A stretch of DNA of 64,000 nucleotides from a virus, in the IMG/VR virus record IMGVR_UViG_3300028146_000008, positions 1 to 64,000 of that record, one strand, 5' to 3'. Position 1 is the first letter of the stretch. The number at the start of each line of letters is the position of its first letter. The notes under the pieces were generated by a model. The model worked only from the letters and a program-made list of their open reading frames with translations, searched no databases and was not told the DNA's origin. Both the position numbers and the translations under genes were made by a program. Of the stretch, positions 5,219 through 55,969 are shown one piece after another.

Positions 5219-7488
5219 TATTGAACTCCTGCGGGCGGGGTCTGTTGATACGGTTTACCAGTGTAGGCATCCACCCACGTTTTGCTTTGCGGGTCCCAAC
5301 CGATAAACATTCGCCCATCGGTATGGATTTTGGCTTTGTCCACGTTCGGGGCGACTTTATTCCAATCCGGTTGCAGAGGCTGATTCTGTTGTGGATTTCC
5401 AATAGGTGCAGCCGTTCCCTGTGTTGGAGCGGGGCCGACTTGCATTTGATTTCCGGGGCCGAACTCTTTCAGTCTGTCTCCGAGTCCTAAACGAATCGCA
5501 GCATCGCGAGCGCCCGTTGAAAGTATTCCGCCATAGTGAGTTCCAGTTAGAGAAACATACGGTTGGTCAAGTTCAGACAAACGATCCAAACCTTGGTGGC
5601 CCATTTGGTACAGAGCGGCGGCAGCCATTCCCACAGTGATATCCGGATTCACCAATGCGTCTTTAGCGTGGTTCTCGTCAGCGGTTCCGGCATGTCCGCT
5701 CTTGACTACGTTCTGCCACTCTTCACGAGCAGCGGTTAGACCGATGATTACTTGTTCCAGCAGCGGGGCGTCTTCGGCTCCGACCTTTAAACGTGCTTGG
5801 TTGATAGGCATGTTCAAGAGCGGAGAGTTAGTACGGGTCAGACGGTCGGACAGTTCCTTCGCATCCGCAGCGTGGCGAAGCAGTTGACCGTTAGCCATCA
5901 AGCCTGCGCCGAGTTTGTTGCTCGGATTTTGGTAGTTTTCTTCGACTTTTTTAACTTCTTCGTACCCAGATTCTTTCCATTCCGGCAAAATCGCGCGAAC
6001 CAAAGATTCGTATTGCGCCCGGTTCATTCCCGGCACGCCCTTACGGAGCTGGGTGGCAATAGCTTTCGGATCCATTCGTTTGGTCAATAGGCCAAGCACT
6101 ACGTTCTGATCCTGCGGAGTGAGATTCATTAGAACACCCCGCGCGGCAGGGGGCAGACCTTGGTAGGCTTTCATTAGTTTGTCAACCGCAGCCGCTTTAT
6201 CATCGGGCGTTAAATTTCCACCATTTAGAGCATTTAATTGTTGCCGTAAGACTGCCGCATTTGCGAGAGATTCCTGAGTTTTTGCGACATCTAAGTTTGC
6301 TTGGCCTTTTCGCTGTTCAGCTTGTGCTTCTTTGTCGCCACGATCAGCCTCGGCTTTCAGCGCAGCTTCCGGGGTCACGCCTGCGGGATAGCCATGCTGA
6401 ATGTCTTCGTGAGTTACGGAATTCAGTAGACGGGGTTTGTCTCCCTCCCACACCAGTTCCGGAGTGTTTTCGCCCTTCAGCCATTCTTTATATCCAGCCG
6501 CTTTTTGGAGCAAAAGCGCAGACAAATCTTGTGGAGAAACTTCAAGCCCTGCGGTAAGACGGTCCACGTCATTCTTCGTGGTCTTGCCACCGAGAGGTGC
6601 GTATTTTTGAATATCGGCAACCAAAGATGGCGGCAGTGCGATTTTTCCATCCACGCCGTGAATCGGGAGCATGATGACTTGCCCTTCTCCCGGTTTCGTG
6701 GTCTGGTTTTCTTCGTCTATGGTTGGGGCAGAGAAACCGCCCGGTAAAAAGATATGTTTCGCAGCCGATGGGTCGTTATTGCCCTTCTCAGCAGCCGCCA
6801 TTTGCTCGGCTTGAGTTGCGCTTATAATCTGGGCGTCTAACCCTGCATCCTTAGCGGCGCGATACAGTTCCATGTTTCCTTGGCGCTGGGGGTCCATGTC
6901 CAGCCCGAGCTTCTGAGCCTCGACTATGTTTCGATACGTCAGGGCGTTTGTCGCAGCGACTTGATGTTTCTGGAGAATTGCTTTTTGCTGGGTTTCAAAT
7001 TCTTCTTTACTTTGCTCCCGTTTCAGAAGGTCTTCCTGCTTGGCGTTTTGCCGAACCGCTCCTGCACCGGCACCTAGTCCAGCTAGAGCATTCGCTAATC
7101 CGCTTTTTTGATCCGGAGCCTGGGAACCTGCTTGCAGCCCCATCAATGCTTTATTTGCGATAGCGCGGATTTTCTGAGACGGAGACATCGGCGGCGCTTC
7201 AGTTGTGATGAGCCGACCTTGGGCGTCGTAGGAATACGTGGGCGTGGATTTCCCGGCTAGTACTCCGGACACGTCCGAAAGTGCGCGGGTCGCCATATTT
7301 ACAAAACTGTGCAGCATTCGGTTGTTGCTCGGAGCGGCGGGCGCGGTTGGCTGAACTGCTGTGCTTACCGCAGTGGATGGATCGCCTGTTCCGCCCGGAA
7401 TTCCTGACGCAGCGTCCATTGGAACGGGAGCCGCAACGGGTTGCTCCGTTCCTGTTGCACCAGCAGATGGGGTATCTTCAAAAGCCAT
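5218..7488 (-). CDS. Large internal virion protein
   Basis: The 756-residue protein has a low-complexity Ala/Pro/Gly N-terminus, a long helical central region with likely coiled coils (about residues 130-220 and 370-420), and a C-terminal 'FIGWDPQSKTWVDAYTGKPY' segment. No lytic transglycosylase or protease motif is visible. It heads the group of three internal-protein-like genes; the size and order fit an ejectosome component. Function not recognised directly. Confidence 0.85.
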   Translation of the reverse strand: MAFEDTPSAGATGTEQPVAAPVPMDAASGIPGGTGDPSTAVSTAVQPTAPAAPSNNRMLHSFVNMATRALSDVSGVLAGKSTPTYSYDAQGRLITTEAPPMSPSQKIRAIANKALMGLQAGSQAPDQKSGLANALAGLGAGAGAVRQNAKQEDLLKREQSKEEFETQQKAILQKHQVAATNALTYRNIVEAQKLGLDMDPQRQGNMELYRAAKDAGLDAQIISATQAEQMAAAEKGNNDPSAAKHIFLPGGFSAPTIDEENQTTKPGEGQVIMLPIHGVDGKIALPPSLVADIQKYAPLGGKTTKNDVDRLTAGLEVSPQDLSALLLQKAAGYKEWLKGENTPELVWEGDKPRLLNSVTHEDIQHGYPAGVTPEAALKAEADRGDKEAQAEQRKGQANLDVAKTQESLANAAVLRQQLNALNGGNLTPDDKAAAVDKLMKAYQGLPPAARGVLMNLTPQDQNVVLGLLTKRMDPKAIATQLRKGVPGMNRAQYESLVRAILPEWKESGYEEVKKVEENYQNPSNKLGAGLMANGQLLRHAADAKELSDRLTRTNSPLLNMPINQARLKVGAEDAPLLEQVIIGLTAAREEWQNVVKSGHAGTADENHAKDALVNPDITVGMAAAALYQMGHQGLDRLSELDQPYVSLTGTHYGGILSTGARDAAIRLGLGDRLKEFGPGNQMQVGPAPTQGTAAPIGNPQQNQPLQPDWNKVAPNVDKAKIHTDGRMFIGWDPQSKTWVDAYTGKPYQQTPPAGVQ

Positions 7489-29307: not shown

Positions 29308-29502
29308 GTGGCCGTAAGAACTAGCATCATTGAAGCACTAGCTCGGGACATGGCATGGGACGGAAGTGAATCAGGAACCGAAGAGTTCCTTGTAAAATTG
29401 CTAAGAGCTAGTGAAGACGTGTACCGTCAAATGAAACAGTCACACAAAGAAGGTTTGTGCTACGACTGTATTAACGCCCTCTCCGATAAACTAAATGCAT
29501 AA
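29308..29502 (+). CDS. Small hypothetical protein
   Basis: 64 residues from GTG 29308 with GAGGTG 7 nt upstream (MAVRTSIIEALARDMAW). Acidic and helical, with a CYDC pair near the C-terminus. It overlaps the HNH gene by 8 nt and so probably accompanies it. Unknown function. Confidence 0.65.
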   Translation: MAVRTSIIEALARDMAWDGSESGTEEFLVKLLRASEDVYRQMKQSHKEGLCYDCINALSDKLNA

Positions 29503-30118
29503 GAAATTACAACTGGATGGCCTTGTATCGGGTCGGCTTACTGTAGTCCAACGGGCGTGTGTGATCGCCAAGAACACCTTTTGGATATGCCAGTGCTCGT
29601 GCGATGGTTTGTACTCCATCATCCGAGGAAAGAGCATCACGGGCAAGAGAATACAAAGTTGTGGTTGCATACGCCGAGAGATGAATAAAAAGAAAGCAGC
29701 GCGACTTGCTATCTTAAACACCTTGGCACCCGGCGAAGCTGCGTTGAACCAGCTATACGCTTCTTATGAGTGGCACGCGGTGATGGATAGAAGTCTTACG
29801 TTCAACCTAACTGTTGATGAGTTCAGGGCGCTGACAAAAGGAAATTGTTTCTATTGCGGGGTTGAACCAAAACAAGTCTCGCGGAACGTTAGCTGCAAAG
29901 GTTCTTACACTTACAACGGAATAGATCGGAAAGATAGCTCTTTGGGCTACAGTCCTGAAAACTGCGTCTCTTGCTGCGGGTCTTGCAACAAAGCTAAAGG
30001 AAAGAAATCTGTTGAAGATTTTCTGGTCATGTGTAGGAAAGTTTCAGAAAAAGCCATGTCAGGGGCGGCCCTAGAAACCGCCCCCTCGATGGGTTGTTTA
30101 AACAATAACGTTAGCTAA
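29495..30118 (+). CDS. Free-standing HNH homing endonuclease
   Basis: 207 residues. An N-terminal domain (SGRLTVVQRACV, WICQCSCDG, SCGCIRREM) resembles the DNA-binding part of phage HNH proteins; the C-terminal nuclease half has CFYCG, 'TYNGIDRKDSSLGYSPENCV' and CCGSCNKAK, the zinc-containing HNH-type fold. It points against the capsid gene and ends within the last codons of capsid exon 3. Its closeness to the ORF-less capsid intron suggests it may mobilise that intron. The last ~25 codons run through a GC-rich hairpin, so the C-terminus is unusual. Confidence 0.85.
   Translation: MHKKLQLDGLVSGRLTVVQRACVIAKNTFWICQCSCDGLYSIIRGKSITGKRIQSCGCIRREMNKKKAARLAILNTLAPGEAALNQLYASYEWHAVMDRSLTFNLTVDEFRALTKGNCFYCGVEPKQVSRNVSCKGSYTYNGIDRKDSSLGYSPENCVSCCGSCNKAKGKKSVEDFLVMCRKVSEKAMSGAALETAPSMGCLNNNVS
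30062..30084 (-). terminator. GC-rich hairpin after the capsid gene
   Basis: GGGGCGG (30062-30068) pairs with CCGCCCC (30078-30084). It lies 27 nt after the capsid stop codon; the T-tract (TTTTT) is displaced about 10 nt. Confidence 0.5.
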
Positions 30119-31988
30119 TTGCCGACGTAGCGTCGATGTATCGAAGCCTCATCGTAGTGTCGGGAGGGAGGCTCGCCGTGTAGTGTACACGATACGAGGT
30201 CCAGCCCGGAATTAGTCCGGATGGGTCCGCCACGCTCAGAGGAGCATTTTGGACAATGTTACATTCGCCTGCTGTTAACTTGTTCTAAGAAAGAACAATG
30301 CTAAATCATTTCTGTTTAGCTCATACAGTTTTTATTCCTGTATGTTCGGACTATTGCATCGCCTTGCGGCGTCTTCTCGCTTAGTCTCTCACGCTGCGAT
30401 TTCTCGCTTGCGCCTCGTTGCCATTTCAGGGTTCGAGTCAATCAGAGAAGATTTTAGGAACACCGAGTTTTAATGTTCCGCCAGTTACCGTCTTCGATTG
30501 CATTGTCACCACGTCCGCCTAGGCGAATCGCTATGACTCCGTCTTTACCGAAGATGTAGGTACGGTACGCAACCACCGAAGCCGCCGAACCCTGATACGC
30601 CGTTGTGAGCGTAACCAAGTTCGACTGGAAGAACGCGACACCAGATGCTGGGAACTCCAGCGTGTCCGCGAGGTCAACCGAGACCAAATCATCCATGCGC
30701 TGGAGTCCAGGCACGGTGTGCTTCAGTACGTCGATTGCTGAGTTGTTGCTGGAATCGTTCAAGAGGTCGCCAACGGCGAACGGGTGAATGACGCCTGCGA
30801 AAAGTGCTTCCGCTTCGTTGAAGGGCTGCACTGCGCGGCCAGCCAGAGACTGGACCTGAGCGCGAATGTTGGCGAGAGCCAACGAAGTACCACCAGTGAT
30901 CTTGACCGACACGGAGCTGTCAACGCTGGAAGCGCCGTCAGCAACCGCACGGGTGATCGCGGACAGAGACTGTCCAAGGCGATACGAAAGTTCGCGACCG
31001 ACGTTTTCAACAACCGGGTCGATTGCGGTAGCGAGGGAAAGGCTGGAGAAGTTCGCGTAGTCCGCGTACTCACCTATCGTGGCAGTCGTAGTTCCGACTG
31101 ACGCGCTGATGCCCGTGGGCACCGTGCCTTCGGACACTTGGGCGGTGTTCGCGCCAAATGTGTTATTAGTTGTGTTTAGGGTTTAAAGCGAGGCTTCCTG
31201 TGTCACCACAGGATCACTCTTACGGTCACCCGTAAGCTCGGACTCTATCTTCTCTTCGGTTTCCCGAAGGTCTTGCGTATTAGTCTCTACGGAGTTATCT
31301 TGTCGATTCAGTAGGCGAATTTTATTGGCCAGTTCTTGGCGTTTCTGAGGACTACCATAAGGTAGCCGCAAAAACTCTAACGCAAGAATGGCTTGTTCTC
31401 TTTTCATTAGCAGGTATGGAACAATTGCGAGTAGAAAATTCTCTCGGTTCTTCTTGCCTGCGGGCATCCACATATACTGGGTACGCCCCGGTTTTCCGCC
31501 GTATCCGATTAGGGATCGAACGTAAAACCGCCCCCCGACATTTTTAACCAACCACTTCATCAGGAAGAGAGATGTATTGTAAATCGCTACTTGGAGTTGA
31601 AAGTCTCCTTGCGCTCTTTTGTTAGCGCAAATAGTTCCTTCTCCATCGACTATCCCGGCCAGATACGACCATAAATGTTTTTCCATTTTAGATATTTCCT
31701 CGGTATTGTCTGATAATGATTGTATCAGAGATCCACCGATATAGCAAGATTTTTAATTCATGCATAACTGTAGGTCTACATGAATAGTTCCAACTGATTA
31801 CCGGAATTGAGAGGGAGTTCCCGACGTTCTGCACAACGAACGAAAGGAGTCTGCGCTTTCAAATTCTCAATAAAACGCTTCTTCTTTCAGTTGGTTTGAT
31901 CTACGACAAGCGTTGTTTAATCGTAGTAAATTACTCGCGATTGCGGTAAGTTGGAAGTAGTGTTTGAAGCTGGATTAAATCCGGCCAT
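30111..31988 (-). CDS. Major capsid protein, N4-gp56-like, in three exons
   Basis: Exon 1 is 31778-31988, exon 2 30473-31166, exon 3 30111-30267. Joined, they give 354 in-frame codons. Landmarks: start MAGFNPASNTTSNLPQ, 'ENLKAQTPFVRCAERREL', LPLNSGNQLELFM-Y-NTFGAN, 'AQVSEGTVPTG', 'IGEYADYANFS', 'AIDPVVENVGRELSYRLGQ', and the end RLRYIDATSAIS. This order is typical of N4-gp56-type capsid proteins of short-tailed phages. AAGGT lies 8 nt before ATG 31988. In exon 1 a 39-nt insertion (31881-31919) adds TAA and TGA in frame after codon 23. Without it the protein would be 340 residues. How full-length protein is made is unclear. Confidence 0.88.
30268..30472 (-). ncRNA. Group I intron without ORF in the capsid gene
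   Basis: 205 nt. P1: exon GGAACAT pairs with intron GTGTTCC, placing a U-G wobble at the splice site. P7 is GACTA with TAGTC (AATAGTCC), P8 is CGCC-GCAA-GGCG, and three hairpins follow (CATACAG/CTGTATG, GCTAAA/TTTAGC, TTGTTCT/AGAACAA). The last intron base is G and splicing restores an ATC (Ile) codon. All signs fit a small self-splicing intron. Confidence 0.85.
31167..31777 (-). ncRNA. Group I intron carrying a LAGLIDADG gene in the capsid gene
   Basis: 611 nt. P1: exon ATTCATGT pairs with GCATGAAT, again with U-G at the cut. P7 GACT/AGTC, with AAGATAGAGTCC close to the usual AAGATATAGTCC; P8 CTTCGG-GAAA-CCGAAG; P9 CTTACGG/CCGTAAG. The 3' part of the endonuclease frame overlaps this core. 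P10 (intron GTTAT with exon ATAAC) places the 3' junction so that a Tyr codon is restored, but the last intron base would then be A instead of the usual G. Confidence 0.78.
31183..31686 (-). CDS. LAGLIDADG homing endonuclease in the capsid intron
   Basis: 167 residues from ATG 31686 with GAGGAAA upstream. One LAGLIDADG motif (SYLAGIVDGEGTI, residues 8-20) followed by the beta-strand pattern of the family (FQLQVAIYNTS; KWLVKNVGGRFYV), so it would act as a homodimer. The last ~50 residues are charged because the frame overlaps the P7-P9 region of the intron. It would cut intron-less capsid genes and spread the intron. Confidence 0.9.
   Translation of the reverse strand: MEKHLWSYLAGIVDGEGTICANKRAQGDFQLQVAIYNTSLFLMKWLVKNVGGRFYVRSLIGYGGKPGRTQYMWMPAGKKNRENFLLAIVPYLLMKREQAILALEFLRLPYGSPQKRQELANKIRLLNRQDNSVETNTQDLRETEEKIESELTGDRKSDPVVTQEASL
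31881..31919 (-). other. 39-nt insertion with two in-frame stops in capsid exon 1
   Basis: It follows capsid codon 23 (GAT) and starts with TAA; a TGA follows ten codons later, and the capsid frame resumes with AAG CGT TTT. The opposite strand of the insertion contains CTACGACAAGCGTT (31901-31914), a copy of the uninterrupted exon junction (CTACGAT-AAGCGTT) with one silent difference. It can form hairpins with the flanks (CTACGA/TCGTAG; AACGCTT/AAGCGTT). Confidence 0.8.
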
Positions 31989-46248: not shown

Positions 46249-46323
46249 TGGGGCCCAGTGATGGATTTGAACCACCGACCCGCTGTTTACAAAACAGCCG
46301 CTCTGCCTCTGAGCTAACCGGGC
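46249..46323 (-). tRNA. tRNA-Thr (UGU)
   Basis: Acceptor GCCCGGT/ACTGGGC, D-arm GCTC/GAGC, anticodon stem GCTGT/ACAGC with loop TTTGTAA (anticodon TGT), T-arm with TTCAAAT, CCA encoded. The discriminator base is C, unusual for tRNA-Thr. Confidence 0.9.
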
Positions 46324-46329
46324 AAAACT

Positions 46330-46403
46330 TGGCGGGGTCGAAGGGAATCAAACCCTCGTTTTTCGAGCGACAGTCGAGCGTCTTGTCACTAGACGACGAC
46401 CCC
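46330..46403 (-). tRNA. tRNA-Asp (GUC)
   Basis: Acceptor GGGGTCG/CGACCCC, D-arm GTCT/AGAC, anticodon loop CTGTCGC (anticodon GTC), T-loop TTTGATT, G73 and CCA encoded. The first pair of the anticodon stem is C-A. Confidence 0.88.
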
Positions 46404-46409
46404 TAAATT

Positions 46410-46483
46410 TGGAGCGAGACGTGAGAATCGAACTCACTTCTTCAGTTTGGAAGACTGAGGCACTGCCAATATGCCAGTCCCGC
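46410..46483 (-). tRNA. tRNA-Gly (UCC)
   Basis: Acceptor GCGGGAC/GTCTCGC, D-arm GCAT/GTGC, anticodon stem TCAGT/ACTGA with loop CTTCCAA (anticodon TCC), T-loop TTCGATT, CCA encoded. Confidence 0.92.
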
Positions 46484-55884: not shown

Positions 55885-55969
55885 CTGGGGCAGCAGGAGT
55901 CGAACCTGCAATGTCCTTTCGGACTGTCGCCTTAACGGGGCGATGCTGTGCCAGTTGAGCCACACCCCA
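55885..55969 (-). tRNA. tRNA-Asn-like gene (GUU) with extended variable arm
   Basis: Acceptor TGGGGTG/TGCCCCA, D-arm GCT/AGC, anticodon stem TCGCC/GGCGA with loop CCGTTAA (anticodon GTT), T-arm GCAGG-TTCGACT-CCTGC and G73 as in tRNA-Asn. The variable region is 17 nt and contains GTCC-GAAA-GGAC; without these 12 nt it would be the normal 5. Position 33 is C, not T, and CCA is not encoded. Confidence 0.75.

Follow-up and report, generated by a model that had tools for sequence, protein, structure and literature searches.

How can a capsid gene stay functional when its reading frame runs into stop codons shortly after the start? This question is raised by a soil phage whose DNA we analysed over 64,000 nt (positions 1 to 64,000 of IMG/VR record IMGVR_UViG_3300028146_000008; "the window" below is this whole stretch). 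Its capsid gene lies on the minus strand with the ATG at 31988. The first exon ends in TAC TAC GAT (31920) and is followed by a 39-nt insert, TAAACAACGCTTGTCGTAGATCAAACCAACTGAAAGAAG (31919-31881), after which the sequence AAG CGT TTT ATT continues from 31880. The insert opens with TAA and contains TGA ten codons further on, and the capsid frame is the same on either side. A first-pass annotation had described this insertion and its stop codons correctly; intact relatives now fix its boundaries. We propose, with a probability of about 0.74, that the insert is a non-autonomous group I mini-intron, for which a neighbouring complete intron of the same pre-mRNA would supply the catalytic core.

The insert carries a guide that pairs with both sides of its junction

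The capsid genes of the insert-free relatives L001-L006 (86-99% identity over the main exon) read TACGAY/AARCG or similar, where the slash marks the junction. Because these relatives run straight across the junction, the boundaries of the insert are unique to the base. The last base of the insert at this unique boundary is G, like the terminal guanosine (omega-G) of group I introns. Within the insert, AACGCTTGTCGTAG is the reverse complement of the joined junction CTACGAT/AAGCGTT at 13 of 14 letters, bearing out the inverted copy with one change that the first-pass annotation had seen. As RNA, AACGCUU-GUCGUAG spans both sides of the junction: GUCGUAG pairs with CUACGAU of the 5' exon as P1, and AACGCUU pairs with AAGCGUU of the 3' exon as P10. 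The single mismatch places G opposite the U that precedes the 5' splice site, which is the U.G pair of group I introns. With the insert's letters shuffled 20,000 times, pairing this strong was never obtained (p = 5e-5).

The insert thus has the splice-site elements of a group I intron. P3-P8, the catalytic core that holds the G site in P7, is absent from its 39 nt, of which 20 form the tail, and a search of the window region against Rfam revealed no group I hit with a cutoff as loose as E<=5. Since there is no room for P3-P8 and no match to RF00028 at this threshold, the insert is, judged by its sequence, a coreless group I derivative and not an autonomous member. A P7 of its own is unlikely because the tail is only 20 nt long. 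No exact match to the insert was found in other viral contigs.

When the four exons are joined across the three interruptions, the gene encodes a capsid protein of 340 aa. The ratio of non-synonymous to synonymous differences (pN/pS) over the first 300 codons of the joined coding sequence was 0.015-0.059 against four relatives, and the protein is therefore under strong purifying selection despite the interruptions.

Mini-introns of the same design recur in related phages

Homologous loci in related phages had been suggested as a check on the insert. Capsid loci of relatives were taken from IMG/VR and their introns were mapped with a purpose-written spliced aligner. In addition to insert-free junctions, we found 45 distinct mini-introns with lengths of 32-98 nt (median 46). 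They occupy about 14 sites, which lie near residues 17-53 and 299-326. The count of 45 leaves out the apparent mini-introns of L230 and L130, which are pieces of complete introns, and that of L268 at residue 188, which is an alignment end. Frame stops were present in 19 of the 20 mini-introns of the first set, and the lengths fall into all three modulo 3 classes (17, 17 and 11). The tails are as short as 15 nt, and no conserved interior was found in the mini-introns beyond the guide and the final G. A search of cultured genomes yielded one locus, in a metagenome-assembled genome. The sole phage record spanning most of the query was Tunturi_3, a podovirus of Tunturiibacter (Acidobacteriota), whose capsid gene is uninterrupted.

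The mini-introns share P1 with U.G, P10 and a terminal G. The boundary search, over a few bases, demanded T before the insert and G at its end, so both letters are partly built in; where the boundary is unique, as in the window, they are free of this bias, and the tests of P1 and P10 held both letters fixed. Compared with shuffles, the combined P1 and P10 pairing was significant for all of the first ten mini-introns (p<=0.0018 each, combined 1e-28) and for 24 of 25 elements in a second batch (p<0.01, combined 8e-47), in which the exception is a fragment of a truncated complete intron. P10 is also longer in mini-introns than in complete introns (6.3 vs 3.6 bp, p=5e-6; second batch 5.9 vs 3.2 bp, p=9e-5).

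We compared guides and exons among mini-introns at homologous sites. At exon positions that differ between two phages, 93% paired with their own guide in P1, compared to 28% with swapped guides; for P10 the values were 87% and 22%. At site 313, for example, exons ending in GGAT, GGTT and GGCT are accompanied by the guides GTCC, GACC and GGCC, respectively. Guides thus track their exons, as would follow if pairing at the splice sites is still important.

The genes lying up to about 5 kb from the capsid gene contained only inserts of complete size (in the portal gene and others), with no convincing mini-introns among them. The portal genes of L015 (547-774), L018 (703-918) and L102 (730-955) carry inserts of 216-228 nt without an open reading frame (ORF) at about residue 81-86; these are probably group I introns, and mini-introns are absent from these genes.

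The capsid genes also contain complete group I introns

The capsid gene of the window carries two complete group I introns that had escaped the first-pass annotation (introns 2 and 3, Table 1). Complete introns in the capsid genes of relatives are about 180-1200 nt long and are, by their sequences, group I introns. Two of those without an ORF matched RF00028 above the gathering threshold (L032, 59.5 bits; L141, 51.4 bits), and the class A intron of L177, which has an ORF, matched below it (E = 0.0012). Class B, the family to which intron 3 belongs, shows compensatory changes in 32 of 39 predicted pairs. Introns 2 and 3 were assigned to group I via these relatives, the window region itself having no Rfam match. 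In other phages, the window's site (site 22) and site 20 are occupied by complete introns, and at site 22 the guide is identical to that of the mini-intron. LAGLIDADG ORFs are stacked, three or four each, in or beside the capsid genes of L069 (2921-4926), L035 (3340-4957) and L039 (3145-4958), marking a homing hot spot.

Mini-introns accompany complete introns

Among fully covered genes of both batches, 36 had a mini-intron and a complete intron, none had a mini-intron alone, 31 had a complete intron alone and 58 had neither (Fisher 4e-13, a value inflated by kinship among the sequences, which overstates their independence). A separate complete core was thus available to the mini-introns in 36 of 36 genes, and none of the 58 genes without a complete intron contained one. 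The association is also local. Where a complete intron lies at residues 26-60, 11 of 22 genes had an N-terminal mini-intron; where complete introns lie only in other parts of the gene, none of 15 did (p=8e-4). The corresponding test for C-terminal mini-introns gave 9/15 vs 1/22 (p=3e-4). Counted per locus with artefacts removed, the next downstream element was a complete intron for 49 of 51 mini-introns, at a distance of 20-215 nt. Some pairs, such as a 33-nt mini-intron with a 203-nt intron across a 69-nt exon (L032) and a 35-nt mini-intron with a 200-nt intron (L011), could be contained in a short transcript.

A neighbouring core may splice the mini-intron

These observations suggest a mechanism in which the mini-intron has been reduced to the half of a group I intron that acts as substrate, namely P1 with U.G, P10 on the 3' exon and omega-G. 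Group I cores are known to act on P1 substrates supplied in trans. The core would normally come from the next complete intron downstream, which in the window would be intron 2 (31777-31167). P1 and P10 of the mini-intron would dock in this core, guanosine would cut the 5' site, and the mini-intron's omega-G would then occupy the G site, after which the exons would be joined. Action in cis seems more plausible than action in trans. A downstream core would meet a mini-intron that is already transcribed and still tethered, whereas an upstream core may have excised itself first, which may explain the downstream bias of the complete introns.

The mini-intron of the window probably derives by deletion from a complete intron that occupied this site. 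Its tail sequence TCAAACCAACT matches TCAAACCCACT, which directly follows the guide in the complete class B intron of L020 at this site (p=0.008). The core may have been deleted once another core was at hand.

Several points weigh against this mechanism. Removal of the mini-intron from RNA is deduced from sequence. In L148 and L260 the nearest complete intron lies upstream of the mini-intron. No conserved structure was found in the tails, and no convincing conserved stem between tail and 3' exon, such pairing being suggestive at some loci (CGGAAU with AUUCCG) and weak overall (p=0.016). Pairing of this PM type, between the middle of the intron and the 3' exon, was seen in several relatives; in the window it gave p=0.30. 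In addition, the putative core donor ends in A: the 3' boundary of intron 2, ACAACTA/ATAACACA, has omega-A at 31167 where G is canonical, and omega-A normally impairs the second splicing step. A 5-bp P10 supports this boundary, and inspection by eye revealed no compensating change in P7. The terminal A could represent a variant or an error, or it could indicate that splicing is weak in this genome.

Alternative explanations

The mini-intron could instead be a minimal ribozyme that splices unaided. We consider this improbable, although it is the strongest of the alternatives: splicing in vitro has been reported for a 67-nt PaSSU intron of Phialophora with P1, P7 and P10 (PMC3160393). The window's mini-intron resembles the PaSSU type in P1 and P10 and has G in place of its omega-U. 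However, the 20 nt that it has beyond P1 and the loop are insufficient for P3-P8, and unaided splicing predicts mini-introns in genes without complete introns, where the count was zero.

Marginally less credible is a dead remnant, that is, an intron that lost its core in a defective gene of a phage or contig that is non-viable or misassembled. The tail resembles the beginning of a complete intron that occupies this site in a relative, and this, like the terminal A of intron 2, would fit such decay. The low pN/pS on the joined exons does not, nor do the many distinct mini-introns with exon-guide covariation and a lengthened P10. Identical or near-identical mini-introns were moreover recovered repeatedly from independent metagenomes, and an assembly error is therefore an unlikely source of the class.

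A protein route, in which a phage RNA ligase joins the exons, splinted on the guide, after cleavage by an RNase, appears very unlikely to us. The guide does splint both exons, and among the annotated genes of the related Tunturi_3 are RNA ligases and an RNA 2'-phosphotransferase. Such a route, however, has no need for the U.G pair and the terminal G, both signatures of group I introns, and gives no reason for mini-introns to depend on a complete intron.

The first-pass annotation had offered ribosomal bypass, reinitiation or RNA processing as ways past the stop codons, and only RNA processing is supported. Bypass of the T4 gene 60 type was suggested by the stop right after the would-be take-off codon and by the hairpin beginning in the GAT codon, and we now give it almost no credence. 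Take-off GAT and landing AAG do not match; indeed, in codon-aligned mini-introns the T before and the G at the end mean that these codons cannot match. Mini-introns also interrupt the frame in more than one phase, their lengths cover every class modulo 3, and the exon-guide covariation obeys splice-site logic. Reinitiation could not serve the mini-introns near the C-terminus (residues 299-326). Equally negligible is the origin first put forward, a snap-back strand switch resembling a guide by chance, which would account for the 13/14-nt inverted copy but leaves the U.G pair, the terminal G, the other 25 nt and the recurrence at sites of complete introns unexplained, and which is already contradicted by compensatory changes in exon and guide among 45 distinct inserts at many sites.

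Features of the locus

The features of the capsid gene are listed in Table 1. Convergent with this gene and overlapping its stop region, an ORF on the plus strand (29495-30118) has the look of an HNH/Cys-rich homing endonuclease and is possibly a free-standing one. The window also contains four tRNA genes, all on the minus strand: a cluster of three at 46252-46483 and a fourth at 55885-55969. In the phage contig L141, the region 3' of the capsid gene (6629-6890) strongly matches permuted transfer-messenger RNA (RF04321, 68.5 bits).

Table 1. Coordinates of the capsid gene, its introns and the predicted pairings in the window
Feature	Position	Strand	Remarks
Capsid exon 1	31920..31988	-	residues 1-23
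Capsid exon 2	31778..31880	-	residues 24-57
Capsid exon 3	30473..31166	-	
Capsid exon 4, through stop codon	30111..30267	-	
Putative coreless group I mini-intron, 39 nt	31881..31919	-	5' splice site after U (GAT/TAA), 3' splice site after omega-G at 31881 (AAG/AAG); intact relatives, shuffle test
P1, 5' exon strand CUACGAU	31920..31926	-	pairs with GUCGUAG, U.G at splice site
P1, guide strand GUCGUAG	31901..31907	-	7 bp; same guide in complete introns at this site in relatives
P10, guide strand AACGCUU	31908..31914	-	7 bp with 3' exon
P10, 3' exon strand AAGCGUU	31874..31880	-	
Mini-intron tail	31881..31900	-	11 nt match the L020 complete intron
Complete group I intron 2, class A, 611 nt	31167..31777	-	LAGLIDADG ORF inside; own P1/P10; last base A; class A homologue in L177
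LAGLIDADG-type homing endonuclease ORF, 167 aa	31183..31686	-	motif and relatives inside introns; no Pfam match
Complete group I intron 3, class B, 205 nt	30268..30472	-	no ORF; class B alignment

Relation to known systems

In orf142 of phage Twort, several group I introns share one gene and their ribozymes are able to use each other's splice sites, but every intron has its own core; Landthaler and Shub reportedly described in 1999 three group I introns in this gene, with exon skipping (cited in PMC11878797). In Euglena chloroplasts, the group III introns are shrunken ribozyme introns, derived from group II, that are thought to use functions from elsewhere. The T4 gene 60 bypass element resembles the mini-introns in its size (about 50 nt), its stop after the take-off codon and its hairpin, but its matched take-off and landing codons are absent in the phage mini-intron, which follows splice-site logic instead.

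The closest precedents come from small introns in fungal rDNA and from engineered spliceozymes. Small degenerate group I introns occur in fungal small subunit (SSU) rRNA genes (PaSSU of Phialophora, 63-75 nt; Arthonia lapidicola, 63 nt; Porpidia crustulata, 78 nt) and, like the phage mini-introns, are tens of nucleotides long with a G.U in P1 at the 5' splice site, P10 and no normal core (PMC3160393). They lie in rRNA genes of fungi, are described as one clade, are said to retain P7 and to end in omega-U, and have no reported link to an adjacent complete intron (PMC3160393). In contrast, the phage mini-introns lie at many sites in a protein gene, end in omega-G, are as short as 32 nt and always occur with a complete intron in the gene. 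Spliceozymes, engineered from the Tetrahymena group I ribozyme, remove separate introns of 64-100 nt whose interior is free; as proposed for the phage, a single group I core excises an intron other than its own, and only sequence near the splice sites matters (PMC4094466). Spliceozymes act in trans and carry the guide on the ribozyme, whereas in the phage the guide is in the mini-intron and the core is likely in the same transcript.

In the open-licence papers searched we found no report of coreless or non-autonomous group I introns in phages and no natural case of group I introns kept by a neighbour's ribozyme; the Tunturi phage paper does not mention introns. We consider it reasonably likely that the capsid genes hold a natural system of two introns and one ribozyme, in which pure-substrate group I introns, reduced to a guide and omega-G and as short as 32 nt, survive in an essential phage gene only via a neighbour's core. 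One practical consequence is that these capsid genes are mis-annotated because gene callers break at every insert. The mini-introns would also show how few features a group I intron requires as a substrate. If the proposal is true, they would be introns without catalysts, maintained by a neighbour's ribozyme, and would provide a group I counterpart of the proposed passage from core loss to reliance on a common catalytic RNA, as envisaged for the origin of the spliceosome and of spliceosomal introns.
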